From: an uncultured Vicinamibacterales bacterium
Lineage (GTDB): Bacteria > Acidobacteriota > Vicinamibacteria > Vicinamibacterales > UBA8438
Reading direction: 5' to 3'
NCBI GenBank assembly: GCA_958295905.1
Contig: OY282382.1
Span: 4,832,910 to 4,896,909 of the forward strand
Length of the DNA: 64,000 nt
The notes below the pieces were generated by a model. That model saw only the letters and a list, made by a program, of their open reading frames with translations, was not told the DNA's origin and did no database searches. Shown piece by piece: positions 2,307 to 8,419 of the stretch (positions within the stretch are counted from its first letter, which is position 1; each line of letters opens with the position of its first letter). A program made the position numbers and the translations under genes.

Positions 2307-3320
2307 CTACACGGGCTCCTTCACGGTGACGGCATCGAGGAACGGCATCATTCCCCGGAGATCGGCACCCACTTTCTCGATTTGATGTTCCTGCTCGGCG
2401 CGGCGCTGCGCCATGAACCAAGCCCGGCCGGCCTTGTCTTCCGCGATCCAGTTCTCGGCGTAGCGCCCGTCCTGAATGTCCTTGAGAATGCCCCGCATCG
2501 CCTCGCGGGTGGCGTCGGTCACGACCCGCGGACCGCCGGTGTAGTCGCCGTGCTCGGCGGTGTCACTGACCGAGTAGCGCATGTAATTGAGACCGCCGCG
2601 ATAGATGAGGTCGACGATGAGCTTCAGCTCGTGCATGCATTCGAAATACGCCACTTCCGGCTGGTAGCCGGCTTCCACCAGCGTTTCGAAACCCGCCTTG
2701 ATGAGGGCGCTGACGCCTCCGCACAGGACCGTCTGCTCGCCGAACAGGTCTGTTTCCGTTTCTTCCGCGAACGTCGTCTCGATGACGCCGGCCCGCGTGA
2801 CCCCAAGCCCCTTCGCATAGGACAGGGCCAGGGCCTTGGCGCTCCCCGTCGCATCCTGCTCGACGGCAACGAGGGCCGGGGTGCCGCCTCCCTCGATAAA
2901 CACCTCGCGCACGCGGTGACCCGGCGCCTTGGGCGCAATCAAGGTTACGTCGACGTCGGATGGCGGCGTGATGGTCTTGAACCGGATATTGAAGCCGTGG
3001 GCGAACATCAGCATGTTGCCCGGCGCGAGATTCGGTGCAATCGACTCATCGTAGATGGCCCGCTGCTTCGTATCGGGCGCGAGAATCATGACCACGTCGG
3101 CCCACGCCGCCGCCTCGGTCCCGCTCGTCACCGTGAGTCCGTCCGCCTGCGCCCGGGCGCGCGACCGGCTGCCGTCCGCCAGCGCCACCTGCACCGAGAC
3201 CCCGCTGTCCTTCAGATTCAGGGCGTGGGCATGCCCCTGGGAGCCGTAGCCGAAAATGGCGACCCTCCTGCCCTGGATGAGTGAGAGATCCGCCGAGTCG
3301 TCGTAGTGAATCGTTGCCAT
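2307..3320 (-). CDS. ilvC: Ketol-acid reductoisomerase (NADP+), class I
   Basis: A 337-residue enzyme, the usual class I length. It converts acetolactate or acetohydroxybutyrate to the dihydroxy acid in valine, leucine and isoleucine synthesis, using Mg2+ and NADPH. The Rossmann loop [13 protein letters not shown] is at residues 25-37. The conserved [11 protein letters not shown] (usually APKGPGH) and the metal-binding segment [13 protein letters not shown] followed by [12 protein letters not shown] are all present. The ATG at 3320 fits the family N-terminus; the upstream extension to 3380 does not. It lies 250 bases after ilvN on the same strand, with a strong hairpin between them. Confidence 0.97.
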
Positions 3321-3526
3321 TCTGGTTTTCGCCTCGCTGGTCGGGTTGATTCCGCGGTGGGGATTGGGCGCACGCGGCAAAGGCCACGCAGCATTCGACG
3401 GCGATGCCTCCGGCCTGACTGCGTTGTTCCGCGGCGCTGCGCCGCTCCGCGGTCACATCAATATGCTCCCTCGTCACGCCTTGTCGCACGAGCGCCTTCA
3501 AGCCCGCCGGCGCCCTTGCCGGTCTC

Positions 3527-3570: not shown

Positions 3571-4119
3571 TCACACGGAATAGGAAACGTCGCCGCCGGG
3601 CTCGGCGTCGGCCGGGGCGCCGGCAGGCTCGGTCGCCTCGCTCTGCTGCCCCCGGGACATGGCGACCCGACCGGTTCGCGCGATCTCGAGCAGACCGTAG
3701 GGCTGCAGGACTCCCAACAACCCGTCGATCTTCTCCTCGGTGCCGGTCGCCTCGACGATCAACGAATCGGGGGCCACGTCGACGACGCGGCCCCGAAACG
3801 TATCCACGATCTGCATCACCTGCGTGCGGGTCTCCTGGGTCGCGGCCACCCTGATGAGGGTCAGGTCCCGGACGACGGCGGCATCGCCGGTCAAATCGGT
3901 CACCCGCAGGACGTTCACGAGCTTGTACAGGTTCGCTTCGAGCCGCCTCGCGCCATTGTCGTCGGTATCGACGACAATCGTCATGCGGGAGACGCCGGCC
4001 ACCTCGGTACGGCCGACCGTCAACGACTCGATGTTGAACGCCCGGCGGCGAAACAGCGACGCCACCCGGTTCAGAACGCCCGGCTTGTCCTCGACGTGCA
4101 CGACAAAGGTACGCCGCAT
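3571..4119 (-). CDS. ilvN: Acetolactate synthase small (regulatory) subunit
   Basis: A 182-residue regulatory subunit of acetohydroxyacid synthase, which binds valine and activates the large subunit encoded just upstream. The N-terminal ACT domain shows VEDKPGVLNRVASLFRRR, then FNIESLTVGRTE. The second domain shows RDLTLIRVA and RGRVVDVAPDSLIVEATG. The C-terminal tail of about 25 residues (rich in E, A, P and G) is an extension. The ATG at 4119 is given as start. A TTG at 4134 adds five residues and has a better AGGGG ribosome site, but that site lies inside a dispersed repeat (family B). Confidence 0.95.
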   Translation of the reverse strand: MRRTFVVHVEDKPGVLNRVASLFRRRAFNIESLTVGRTEVAGVSRMTIVVDTDDNGARRLEANLYKLVNVLRVTDLTGDAAVVRDLTLIRVAATQETRTQVMQIVDTFRGRVVDVAPDSLIVEATGTEEKIDGLLGVLQPYGLLEIARTGRVAMSRGQQSEATEPAGAPADAEPGGDVSYSV

Positions 4120-4134
4120 GATATGGCCCGTCAA

Positions 4135-4324: not shown

Positions 4325-6043
4325 CTAGTCGTCCGCCGTCTCGACGATGGGGCTGGGGCTCGGCCGCCGGATCATGGCGTGCAGGTCGGCGCCGGCCGGC
4401 ACCATCGGATAGACGGTATCTTCCTGCTCGACCCGGAAGTCGATGACCGCCGCACCGGGTTCGGCCCGCGCCATCGCCACCGTCGGCTCGACGTCCTGAC
4501 GCCGCGAGACCGTCGCGCTGCGCAGACCGAAGGCGTCGCCCAGTTTCGCGAAGTCGGGACTGAGCAGCGGCGTGGCCGCGTAGCGCCGCTCGTAGAAGAA
4601 CTCCTGCCACTGGCGCACCATGCCCAGATAGCCGTTGTTGATGATGGCCACGTTGACCTTCACCTTCTCTTGCGCGATGGTGGCCAGCTCGCACATCGTC
4701 ATCTGGAAACCGCCGTCCCCCACGATCGCCCACACCTCGGCCTCGGGCCGCGCGAGCTTGGCGCCGATCGCGGCCGGCAGGGCGAACCCCATCGTCCCCA
4801 GGCCCCCCGACGTGATGAGCGACCGGGGTTCCTGATGGTGGTAGTACTGCGCTTCCCACATCTGGTGCTGCCCGACGTCGGTCACCACGACCGCCTTCCC
4901 GCCGGTCATCCTCCAGATGTCGTTGATGACGTGCGCCGCGTACAGGTGCCCGCTGTCCGGCAGGTTCTGCACGTCGCGGACCGCCGAATCGCCCTTCATC
5001 CCGGCGATGGCGCCGAGCCACGCCCGGCGGTCGCCGGGTTCTATCCGCGGCAGCAGATCCCGCAGCACGTTGGACAGATCGCCGGCCAGAGCGACGTCCA
5101 CGATCACGTTCTTGTTGAACTCGGCCGGATCGATGTCGATATGGATCTTCCGCGCGTTGGGCGCGTACGTCCTGATGTTGCCGGTAACGCGGTCGTCGAA
5201 GCGCATGCCGAAGGCCAGCAGCAGGTCGGCCTCCTGAATGGCTTGGTTCACCCACGCTTCCCCGTGCATGCCCATCATGCCCAGATTCAACGGATGCAGG
5301 GCCGGAAACGACCCGATGCCGAGCAGGGTCATCGCCACGGGGATGTTGGCCCGCTCGGCGAGCCCGCGCACGAGAGCCATCGCGCCCGACAGCATCACCC
5401 CGTGCCCGGCGAAGATGACCGGACGCTTCGCGCTGTTGATCAGCTCGACGGCCTTCCGGCGCTCGGCCTCCGACGCCCGCAGATCCGGTCGATAGCCGGG
5501 CAGGCGGACCGGGCTGGGGTCCCACACGAACTCGGCCGACGCCTGCTGGGCGTCTTTCGTGATGTCCACGAGCACGGGCCCGGGACGACCGGAGCGCGCG
5601 ACGTAGAACGCCTCGTGGATGGTCGGCGCCACCTCGGAGACCTTGGACACCAGATAGTTGTGCTTCGTGATCGGCAGGGTGACGCCCGTGACGTCGGTTT
5701 CCTGAAAAGCGTCGGAGCCGATCAGCCGGCTGCCCACCTGCCCGGTGATGCACACGATGGGCGAAGAATCGAGCATCGCGGTGGCGATGCCGGTGACCAT
5801 GTTCGTGGCGCCGGGCCCGGACGTGGCCACCGCCACCCCGACCTCGCCGCTGGCCCGCGCATAGCCGTCGGCCATGTGGGTCGCGCCCTGCTCGTGCCGC
5901 ACCAGGACGTGCCGGACCGGGTACTCGAGCAGGGCGTCGTAGGCGGGCAGAATCGCGCCGCCCGGATACCCGAACACCGTGGTCACTCCCTCGCGAACGA
6001 GGGATTCCCACAGAATCTGCGCGCCGGTTCTCATGTTTCCCAT
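4325..6043 (-). CDS. ilvB: Acetolactate synthase large (catalytic) subunit
   Basis: A 572-residue thiamine-diphosphate enzyme that condenses pyruvate with pyruvate or 2-oxobutyrate, the first common step of branched-chain amino-acid synthesis. It has the three-domain layout: an N-terminal pyrimidine-binding domain with FGYPGGAILP and the catalytic glutamate in RHEQGATHMADGYARASG (about residues 47-64), a central FAD/Rossmann domain, and a C-terminal ThDP/Mg domain with GDGGFQMTMCEL and NNGYLGMVRQWQ. The length is normal. It follows ilvD by 40 bases and precedes ilvN, so catalytic and regulatory subunits are made from one transcript. The second ATG (6034) is an alternative start. Confidence 0.97.
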   Translation of the reverse strand: MGNMRTGAQILWESLVREGVTTVFGYPGGAILPAYDALLEYPVRHVLVRHEQGATHMADGYARASGEVGVAVATSGPGATNMVTGIATAMLDSSPIVCITGQVGSRLIGSDAFQETDVTGVTLPITKHNYLVSKVSEVAPTIHEAFYVARSGRPGPVLVDITKDAQQASAEFVWDPSPVRLPGYRPDLRASEAERRKAVELINSAKRPVIFAGHGVMLSGAMALVRGLAERANIPVAMTLLGIGSFPALHPLNLGMMGMHGEAWVNQAIQEADLLLAFGMRFDDRVTGNIRTYAPNARKIHIDIDPAEFNKNVIVDVALAGDLSNVLRDLLPRIEPGDRRAWLGAIAGMKGDSAVRDVQNLPDSGHLYAAHVINDIWRMTGGKAVVVTDVGQHQMWEAQYYHHQEPRSLITSGGLGTMGFALPAAIGAKLARPEAEVWAIVGDGGFQMTMCELATIAQEKVKVNVAIINNGYLGMVRQWQEFFYERRYAATPLLSPDFAKLGDAFGLRSATVSRRQDVEPTVAMARAEPGAAVIDFRVEQEDTVYPMVPAGADLHAMIRRPSPSPIVETADD

Positions 6044-6083: not shown

Positions 6084-7766
6084 TCACGCCGTCGTCACCG
6101 CGCCTTCGGCCGCCGAACCCACGAGACGGCAGTACTTCGCCATGACGCCGGTCGCGTACCGCGGCGCGGGGGCCTGCCAGCCGCGCATGCGTTCGGCGAT
6201 CTCCACCTCGTCCACTTCGACCCGCAGCTCGCGCCCCTGGAGGTCGAACACGATGGTATCGCCGTCGCGCACCGCCGCGATCGGCCCCCCCTGCGCCGCT
6301 TCCGGCGCAACATGGCCCGCCATGAGCCCGCGGGTGGCGCCGGAGAACCGGCCGTCGGTCAACAAGGCGACCGAATCACCGAGGCCGGCCCCGACGATGG
6401 CCGCGGTCACCGCCAGCATCTCGCGCATGCCGGGCCCCCCGCGGGGGCCTTCGTAACGAATCACGACGACGTCGCCGGGCTGCAGCGCACCCCGCTCCAC
6501 CGCCTCGAAGCAGGCTTCCTCGCCGTCGAACACCCGCGCCGGTCCGCGGTGCTTCCGGGCGCCATAGCCGCCGGCCACCTTGACGACGCATCCGTCGGGA
6601 GCCAGATTGCCCTTCAGGATGATGAGCCCGCCGGTCGGCGTTATCGGATCGGACGCCGGCCGCACCACCTCCTGGCCGGGCGCCTCGGTCGCCGCCTGCG
6701 CTTCTTCCCCGATCGTGCGGCCGGTGACGGTGACCTGATCGGACCGCAGGACGCCCACCTCGCGCAACCGGTGCGCCAGCAGGCGGCTCCCGCCGGCCCG
6801 GTACAGATCGGTGGCCACGAAACGGCCTCCCGGCTTGAGATCGGCCAGCAGCGGCGTCTCCCGACTGATGCGGTCGAAATCGTCGATGGTGACGCCGACC
6901 CCGGCTTCGCGCGCGATCGCCAGCAGATGCAGCACCGCGTTGGTCGAACCGCCGGTGGCGGCCACCGACGCGATGCCGTTCTCGAGCGCGGCCCGGGTCA
7001 TGATCTGCCGGGGCCGCCGATCCGCGAGAACCAGGTCCATGATGAGGCGCCCCGACTCGGAGGCCACGACGTCCTTCTCTTCATTCATCGCCGGCACCGC
7101 GTTGTGGCTCATCGGCGAGATGCCGATCAGCTCGCAGACGGTCGCCATGGTGTTGGCGGTGAACTGGCCGCCGCACGCGCCCGGACCGGGACACGCCGCG
7201 TCCTCGAGCGCCTTCAACCGCGCGTCGGTCATCTTGCCGGCCGCGTGCGCGCCCACCGCCTCGAACACGTCCTGGATGGTGACGTCCCGGTCCTCCCACC
7301 GCCCCGGTGCAATGGAGCCGCCGTAGAGCACGAGGCCCGGAATGTTGACCCGCGCCACCGCCATCACCCCGCCGGGGATGGTCTTGTCGCAGCCCACCAG
7401 CACGACGAGTCCGTCGAACAGGTTACCGCGGGCCACGAGCTCGATGGAATCGGCGATCACCTCGCGGCTGATCAGCGAGGCGCGCATCCCGTCGCTGCCC
7501 ATGGTGATGCCGTCCGAGATGGACACGGTGTTGAACTCCATCGGCGTGCCCCCGGCGGCGCGAATCCCTTCCTTGATCCGCTCCCCGAGCCGCCGCAGGT
7601 GGAAGTTGCACGGCCCGATCTCGATCCACGTGTTCGCGACCCCGATGATCGGCCGGCGCAGGGCGTCGTCGTCGAACCCGACCGCCTTCAACATCGATCG
7701 GGCCGGGGCCCGGGACGGACCATCGGTAATCGCGCCGCTGCGGGTCTTGCCTGGTATGCCGGTCAT
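6084..7766 (-). CDS. ilvD: Dihydroxy-acid dehydratase
   Basis: A 560-residue iron-sulfur dehydratase that removes water from 2,3-dihydroxy-isovalerate or -methylvalerate. Family landmarks are PIIGVANTW with [17 protein letters not shown] (cluster ligand cysteine), [14 protein letters not shown] (second cysteine), [20 protein letters not shown] and the C-terminal [13 protein letters not shown]. It is the first structural gene of the leftward ilvDBNC operon. Its ATG lies 20 bases after the U tract of an attenuator hairpin, so its expression should depend on read-through of that terminator. Confidence 0.97.
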
Positions 7767-7785: not shown

Positions 7786-7821
7786 AAAAAAGGGCCATCA
7801 CCCGACTGTGGATGATGGCCC
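7786..7821 (-). terminator. Attenuator terminator upstream of ilvD
   Basis: On the minus strand GGGCCATCA (7821-7813) pairs with TGATGGCCC (7800-7792), a perfect 9-bp stem with a 12-base loop, followed at once by six U residues (7791-7786). This is an intrinsic terminator inside the ilvD leader, 20 bases before the ilvD start codon. A competing antiterminator is possible: GTGGATGATG at 7856-7847 is perfectly complementary to CATCATCCAC at 7817-7808, which overlaps the 5' arm of the terminator. Confidence 0.88.
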
Positions 7822-7848
7822 GCGAATCTGCTGCGTTCGTCGAGCGCA

Positions 7849-7929
7849 TCATCCACCGGCCCCCGGCGCAATCATGACGCCGGCACCGTGAACACCGACC
7901 ACGACGGAGCGACGGGACCCGCAATCCAT
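7849..7929 (-). CDS. ilv operon leader peptide (Val/Ile-rich, 26 aa)
   Basis: ATG at 7929 with AAAGGTG seven bases upstream, and TGA at 7851-7849. The peptide reads MDCGSRRSVVVGVHGAGVMI followed by APGAGG. It has three consecutive valine codons, then two more valines and one isoleucine. The stop codon lies inside the left arm of the antiterminator. Ribosomes stalled at the Val/Ile codons would leave that arm free (read-through), whereas ribosomes reaching the stop would cover it (termination). This is the classical layout of amino-acid-controlled attenuation, as known for enterobacterial ilv and leu operons. Translation of the peptide is inferred. Confidence 0.8.
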   Translation of the reverse strand: MDCGSRRSVVVGVHGAGVMIAPGAGG

Positions 7930-7955
7930 GGAGCGCACCTTTCGAAAACGGCTTT

Positions 7956-7985
7956 ATTCTAACGCGGGCGTGGAACCGGTCTCAA
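7956..7985 (-). promoter_or_regulatory. Probable sigma-70-type promoter of the ilv operon
   Basis: On the minus strand TTGAGA (7985-7980) is followed after 18 bases by TAGAAT (7961-7956). Transcription should start near 7949, about 20 bases before the leader-peptide start. The site lies directly downstream of the msrB stop codon. Confidence 0.65.
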
Positions 7986-7996
7986 GACCCGGTTCG

Positions 7997-8419
7997 TCAG
8001 CGTTCCGGCAGGGACTCCCCCTCGGGCACGAAGCGCAGGGCGACGCCGTTGTTGCAGTACCGCTTCCCGGAGGGCTGCGGTCCGTCCGGAAAGACATGCC
8101 CCTGATGCCCGCCGCAACGGGCGCAGTGATACTCGGTCCGCGGCAGGATCATCTTGAAGTCGCGCTTCGTGCCGAGACTGCCCTCGATCGGCGCGAAGAA
8201 GCTCGGCCAGCCCGTCCCGCTCTCGTACTTGCCCGCCGACTCGAACAACGGCAGGTGGCAGGCGGCGCACACGAACGTCCCGGCCCGCTTCTCGTGATTC
8301 AGCGGGCTGGACCCGGGCGGCTCGGTCGCCTCCCGGAACAGGACCGCGAAAGACTCCGCCGGCAGCAGCGCGCGCCACTCCTCCGGCGATTTCCTCCCGG
8401 CTTGGGTCGCTTCGGTCAT
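7997..8419 (-). CDS. msrB: Peptide-methionine (R)-S-oxide reductase
   Basis: A 140-residue single-domain MsrB, which reduces the R epimer of methionine sulfoxide in proteins. Two zinc-binding CxxC pairs are present (CAAC near residue 51 and CARC near residue 98, within CARCGGHQGHVF). The conserved GTGWPSF and the active-site segment RYCNNGVALRF with the catalytic cysteine are also present. It is not fused to MsrA. It ends just before the ilv promoter and is probably transcribed as a single gene. Confidence 0.95.
   Translation of the reverse strand: MTEATQAGRKSPEEWRALLPAESFAVLFREATEPPGSSPLNHEKRAGTFVCAACHLPLFESAGKYESGTGWPSFFAPIEGSLGTKRDFKMILPRTEYHCARCGGHQGHVFPDGPQPSGKRYCNNGVALRFVPEGESLPER

Follow-up and report, generated by a model that had tools for sequence, protein, structure and literature searches.

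The window analyzed here is a stretch of 64,000 nucleotides from a Vicinamibacterales (Acidobacteriota) genome, and its minus strand carries an ilvD-ilvB-ilvN-ilvC operon behind a leader region and msrB (Table 1). The true start of ilvC probably lies downstream of position 3380. In an initial annotation of this DNA, the region ahead of ilvD had been described as a complete ilv attenuator, and all elements of that description were recovered. The promoter boxes placed upstream of the leader correspond to TTGAGA-N18-TAGAAT (7985-7956), a promoter-like sequence with 10/12 matches that was found once vs. 0.1 expected in shuffles; relatives have TTGA(C/G)-N17/18-TAGAAT ahead of the ilvD leader. The 26-residue Val/Ile leader is present with its run VVVGV...VMI ahead of ilvDBNC, its stop codon does fall within arm 2, and the 10-base arm is indeed fully complementary to a segment that overlaps the 5' arm of the terminator, giving a 10-bp antiterminator. 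The terminator had been described correctly as a hairpin followed by six U, but its stem comprises 12 bp instead of nine, with nine perfect pairs followed by a G-U pair and then by C-G pairs. This intrinsic terminator (one found vs. 0.3 expected) stands between the leader and the first gene, and 26 nt separate its 3' arm from the ilvD start codon.

Table 1. Features of the ilv locus, in window coordinates.
Feature	Position	Strand	Remarks
msrB	7997-8419	minus	directly upstream of the ilv leader region
-35-like box TTGAGA	7985-7980	minus	TTGA(C/G) form also precedes the ilvD leader in relatives
-10-like box TAGAAT	7961-7956	minus	also precedes the ilvD leader in relatives
Leader ORF MDCGSRRSVVVGVHGAGVMIAPGAGG, 26 aa	ATG 7929 to TGA 7851-7849	minus	stop codon inside arm 2
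Hairpin P1, within the leader ORF, immediately 5' of arm 2	7888-7857	minus	from folding; position kept in relatives and other operons
Arm 2 GTGGATGATG, 5' half of the antiterminator	7856-7847	minus	holds the leader stop codon; covaries with arm 3
Arm 3 CATCATCCAC, 3' half of the antiterminator	7817-7808	minus	exact complement of arm 2; overlaps the terminator 5' arm
Intrinsic terminator GGGCCATCATCC-ACAGTC-GGGTGATGGCCC	7821-7792	minus	12 bp; 5' arm 7821-7810, 3' arm 7803-7792
T6 tract of the terminator	7791-7786	minus	TTTTTT directly after the hairpin
ilvD, dihydroxy-acid dehydratase, first structural gene	6084-7766	minus	TIGR00110, 679.5 bits, above cut-off
ilvB, acetolactate synthase large subunit	4325-6043	minus	TIGR00118, 736.3 bits, above cut-off
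ilvN, acetolactate synthase small subunit	3571-4134	minus	TIGR00119, 184.6 bits, above cut-off
ilvC, ketol-acid reductoisomerase	2307-3380	minus	TIGR00465, 425.0 bits, above cut-off

Apart from these features, a palindromic stretch (GAACCGGGTCTTGAGACCGGTTC, 7961-7994) overlaps the -35 box of the ilv promoter and lies directly behind the msrB stop codon. An operator and a remnant of an msrB terminator are both candidates for its identity.

Conservation and Covariation of the Leader

As its own test, the initial annotation had named conservation in relatives. When relatives including genomes of the same genus and family were compared, the leader frame, the position of the stop codon and both competing helices were found to recur. 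The closest named relatives are MAGs (metagenome-assembled genomes) designated Vicinamibacteria or Vicinamibacterales. In the family, in the order and in Acidobacteriota beyond it, the elements appeared in the same succession upstream of ilvD; the Val/Ile run of the leader was conserved and the stop codon stood inside or adjoining arm 2. Leaders of the nearest relatives include MSFRPVVVVVSRVGVVITPTASG, MDSLQLRSVVVVASVGVITPTSSG, and MHTTREFLDIAIVIVIVAGAIAPAANG, and MAGs named gp2 and Candidatus Acidiferrum have ilvD leaders like ...IVVRIIPVPVRGTTGG, ending in GGATGATGG. The N-terminal half of the leader is unconserved, which left counts of synonymous and non-synonymous changes in the leader equivocal, and they carry no weight here. 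In several relatives the hairpin lies 80-260 nt away from the gene, and in some the T tract is interrupted. The ilvD element was absent from one genus of the family (L098-L101).

Both of the mutually exclusive helices covary. Covarying stems had been proposed as a check among ilvD leaders, and the terminator does covary already among these leaders alone, whereas the 8-bp antiterminator core hardly varies there and its covariation, weak within this set, comes mainly from other operons. Since the core was too constant among ilvD leaders to be judged, we made a multi-operon alignment of the switch (A2), which was fitted to neither helix. In A2, two-sided changes numbered 27 in the terminator (vs. 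7.1 in shuffles) and 32 in the antiterminator (vs. 15.9), and the covariation score of the antiterminator was 0.162, as compared to 0.096 when shuffled and at most 0.062 with slid partners.

Two minor observations were made among the ilvD loci. At six loci (L086, L087, L088, L094, L095, and L102), the -35 box of the ilvD leader is touched or closely preceded by a conserved motif, TTATGAAAnnGTAAnnATTATAAnnTTGA, which is absent from the window and may be the operator of a regulator. Also, MAGs titled Woeseiaceae and Betaproteobacteria (L014 and L048) bear a leader and ilvD of the acidobacterial type, and for this reason their taxon names are probably wrong.

A Switch Family in Acidobacteriota

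A covariance model of the ilvD leaders, Val codons included (R1), detected one more strong copy in the window genome (G000:C1:3749862-3749978), directly preceding the genes for homoserine dehydrogenase and threonine synthase (hom-thrC). This hom copy was not part of the R1 training set. Because R1 matches are biased toward Val-rich leaders, a model of the switch alone (R2) was built, with the window and hom sequences in its training set. In the 6.3-Mb genome, R2 returned exactly two strong copies, ahead of ilvD (64.2 bits, E = 7.3e-12) and hom (60.1 bits). Across the phylum sample, matches at E <= 1e-4 occurred in 56 of 396 genomes and 33 of 211 genera, where 56 is an upper figure since some matches near the cut-off are probably ordinary terminators; L230, L234, L236, L237, and L239, which lie near the cut-off and are without a leader or without a fitting gene, are probably of this kind. 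Approximately 37 genomes have a best R2 match at E <= 1e-7. In 27 genomes whose records assign them to other phyla, the best E-value was 1e-3, and no match reached E <= 1e-4. The independent weight for the family is carried by this outgroup control and by the discovery of the untrained hom copy with R1. Two other R1 matches (L178 and L182) were rejected as chance.

The initial annotation can thus be refined in that the window element, which matches R2 and has its leader stop at +3, is one copy of a phylum-wide, multi-operon family. Many genomes in the sample hold two or more copies. The switch is near-constant (GGATGATG / GGCCATCATCC / GGATGATGGCC-Tn), and in nearly all members the stop codon occurs in arm 2 at an offset of +3 or +8 and T runs follow the hairpin. 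Genes behind the copies include ilvB, ilvN, ilvA, pheA (in a pheA-ilv operon) and those for citramalate synthase, homoserine dehydrogenase, aspartokinase-homoserine dehydrogenase, cysteine synthase, and siroheme synthase. Members without a clear leader are L126, where the stop codon is further downstream, L157, and L139. In a scan of the window and twelve other loci against Rfam 15, only tRNAs were detected and no T-box or other cis-regulatory family, and a permissive scan added only a chance match of 12.4 bits. Chance is a poor explanation for the window element, given that its order recurs in relatives, that both helices covary and that the switch model assigns it an E-value of 7e-12.

The residues of the leaders fit the genes behind them: Val, Ile, and Leu for ilvD, ilvB, ilvN, and ilvA, Ile for cimA, Thr for thrA and hom, and Cys for cysteine synthase and siroheme synthase. 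Leaders were chosen blind to composition, as the ATG ORF ending at arm 2, and the two other frames of the same DNA served as controls. V, I, and L together make up 43% of ilv leaders vs. 13% of the other frames; the corresponding values are 24.5 vs. 2.8% for T in thr leaders, 22.5 vs. 3.0% for I in cimA leaders, and 24.6 vs. 3.0% for C in cys leaders. None of 20,000 shuffles of the gene labels (55 loci) reached the observed fit, a result to be read as a guide and not as a probability because related genomes are not independent. Aspartokinase-homoserine dehydrogenase, for example, is preceded by MTTTTTTIGVDGRCG and MQTHPSAATTIVITTTTCGVPRG, citramalate synthase by MFAQIGIIIIAISSPPPGG and ...LAIIIRSIILPGSGSG, and siroheme synthase by ...AAAICPICSCCCTTMMPGTSG. 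Cysteine synthase follows the leader MLVRACACPCCCPACCRRQDVVYG, and another two genomes of that genus have MRILTCTCPRRCVACCCRQDFVCG and ...RTCPLCCLACCCRTDFVCG. For the genus of G030, G042, and G052, the cysteine synthase leader reads ...TCTCPRRCVACCCRQDFVCG. The Cys leaders (L172, L180, L181, and L153) sit on the same intrinsic terminator/antiterminator switch as the ilv and thr leaders. The hom leader of the window genome has only a modest content of Thr and Ile (T2, I4, I11, and T13).

Folding with a Modeled Ribosome

The ribosome was modeled as a mask that reached 14 nt beyond the beginning of the A-site codon. With the ribosome stalled at Val9, Val10, Val11, Val13, Val18, or Ile20, the window transcript folded into the 2:3 antiterminator (8-10 bp), and with the ribosome at the stop codon only the terminator formed. 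These are the alternative folds predicted for the ribosome-position switch of the initial annotation, which is supported in this respect. Among the 55 loci, stalling produced the antiterminator at 406 of 420 positions in transcripts ending at arm 3, and the terminator was obtained at 55/55 with the ribosome at the stop codon. Covariation and masked folding together indicate that antiterminator and terminator exclude each other, and that a ribosome leaves the antiterminator free when it stalls but prevents it when it sits at the stop codon. At equilibrium, full-length folds kept the antiterminator at only 145/420 stall positions, and many relatives favor the terminator even when arm 2 is free. 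The decision would therefore have to be kinetic for most members, as is usual in known attenuators.

No protector of arm 2 is evident in the window, since the transcript up to arm 3, when left untranslated, folds into the 2:3 antiterminator and not into a 1:2 pairing. Untranslated folds gave the 2:3 pairing at 37 of the 55 loci. A four-segment attenuator of the E. coli trp type was rejected for the window, where arm 1 was not found to protect arm 2. The initial annotation is refined accordingly, with only an independent hairpin (P1) found just 5' of arm 2. A hairpin adjoining arm 2 is kept across operons (mean z of -1.05 vs. +0.31 for the stretch further upstream), and P1 may act as a pause hairpin that lets the ribosome catch up.

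Discussion

Since the leaders fit their genes, both helices covary and a modeled ribosome yields the alternative folds, the ilvD-ilvB-ilvN-ilvC leader is very probably a ribosome-mediated transcription attenuator, belonging to an acidobacterial switch family with operon-specific leader peptides. In the cell, transcription would start near position 7949 and a ribosome would translate the 26-codon leader. When charged Val-tRNA or Ile-tRNA is scarce, the ribosome would stall at Val9-Val13, Val18, or Ile20, leaving arm 2 free to pair with arm 3 the moment the latter is transcribed; this pairing would block the terminator, and RNA polymerase would read into ilvD. When amino acids are ample, the ribosome would reach the stop codon in arm 2 and cover this arm, so that arm 3 would pair with arm 4 and transcription would end at the T6 tract.

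The switch sequence varies much less across operons than its base pairing would allow, as might be expected if an RNA-binding protein or a ligand operated the attenuator, with the near-constant GGATGATG/CATCATCC as its binding site and the ORF incidental. However, the leader residues vary with the downstream pathway while the switch remains unchanged, almost every member keeps the stop codon at +3 or +8 of arm 2, and Rfam gave no matching family, all of which makes such an arrangement improbable. Slightly more improbable still is that the hairpin mainly controls translation of ilvD, by translational attenuation or coupling, and not the termination of transcription. The mere 26 nt between its 3' arm and the ilvD start codon and the interrupted T tracts of some relatives would suit this explanation, but the window hairpin is followed by a clean T6, nearly all members have T runs, and a hairpin 80-260 nt from the gene, as in several relatives, is too far away to hide the ribosome site. 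The position of msrB directly upstream on the same strand raises the further option that the terminator merely ends msrB transcription and that the leader is a chance ORF. We give it almost no credence: a promoter lies between msrB and the leader, and whereas the sequence upstream of this promoter varies among relatives, the element remains tied to ilvD or, at other loci, to hom, thrA, cimA, and others. Conservation of the element with its downstream gene refutes this option in practice.

As for the family, we think it likely that one homologous acidobacterial attenuator platform was duplicated within genomes and re-aimed by swapping leader peptides, with the Cys members as intrinsic-terminator attenuators. 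Its targets would be Val/Ile/Leu (ilvD, ilvB/N, and ilvA), Ile (cimA), Thr (thrA and hom-thrC), and Cys (cysteine synthase and siroheme synthase). The switch could function with any triple of complementary segments, so the recurrence of identical letters points to a likely origin of the switch copies from one ancestor.

The mechanism itself is of a textbook kind. The ilvGMEDA, ilvBN, and leuABCD leaders of E. coli are the classical branched-chain amino acid (BCAA) attenuators of the gamma-Proteobacteria. Like them, the window has a short Val/Ile/Leu leader, an antiterminator and intrinsic terminator that are mutually exclusive, an ilv operon downstream, and a stop codon that lets the ribosome cover arm 2. 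Unlike them, it has an independent hairpin upstream of arm 2 instead of an evident arm-1/arm-2 protector, and no sequence relation to the acidobacterial switch was found (no match to Rfam Leu_leader or any other family). Moreover, the switch sequences of E. coli attenuators are unrelated to one another, whereas one near-identical switch is common to the ilv, thr, cim, and cys genes of Acidobacteriota. The thrL attenuator of E. coli places a Thr/Ile leader before aspartokinase-homoserine dehydrogenase and thr genes. The acidobacterial thr attenuator resembles it in its Thr/Ile codons and in the kind of genes downstream, but has its switch sequence in common with the ilv attenuator found in that genome.

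In Actinobacteria, BCAA-rich leader ORFs with a candidate terminator have been described for ilvB and, as the uORF/ilvB-II motif, for Corynebacterium ilvBNC (PMC1262725, PMC10272879, PMC11857589). These share with the window a BCAA-rich leader ORF upstream of an ilv operon but differ in phylum, gene order and sequence. The mode of action of the actinobacterial ilvB leaders was described as unclear (PMC1262725), whereas both competing helices are backed by covariation in Acidobacteriota. Similarly, the Cys-rich leader ORFs described for Mycobacterium, Propionibacterium, and Bifidobacterium are reported to lack a conserved terminator hairpin (PMC1262725); acidobacterial Cys leaders resemble them in having a Cys-codon run close to the stop codon, ahead of cysteine genes, but are located on an intrinsic terminator/antiterminator switch. 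In the large survey of Naville and Gautheret, the attenuators predicted for Acidobacteria were almost without associated function (PMC2965389). Our literature search, which did not cover Lopatovskaya (2010; doi 10.1134/S0026893310010164), found no acidobacterial leader-peptide attenuator. Allowing for a possible earlier prediction, the new aspects are the phylum, the reuse of a near-identical switch whose sensor peptide is exchanged, and the pairing of Cys leaders with an intrinsic terminator.

For a lineage that has been sequenced, these results offer a concrete mode of control, open to testing, for the synthesis of branched-chain amino acids, threonine, citramalate, and cysteine, and the covariance model can be used to identify leader peptides that lack annotation in an abundant but poorly cultured phylum. 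Reuse of one switch with exchangeable sensor peptides also bears on the question of how attenuators arise and spread, which the lack of resemblance between attenuators of different operons usually hides. If the reading of a homologous platform is true, the family would be a naturally modular set of sensors.

Several further copies of the switch lie before other genes. At L128, L136, L148, and L162, a Leu/Ile-rich leader precedes a protein of ~90 aa that is convergent with ilvC and has no NCBIfam match; it is possibly a player in branched-chain metabolism. Genes for LysR-type regulators (L134, L137, and L154) bear the switch with Val/Leu/Ile leaders, by which the regulator itself appears to be under attenuation. 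Glutamate synthase genes (L139 and L232) also bear it, with leaders that fit neither glutamate nor glutamine. Finally, switch-like elements with Leu-rich leaders (L173 and L175) occur before a cupin-like ORF, which is followed by a gene resembling MqnD of the menaquinone pathway.
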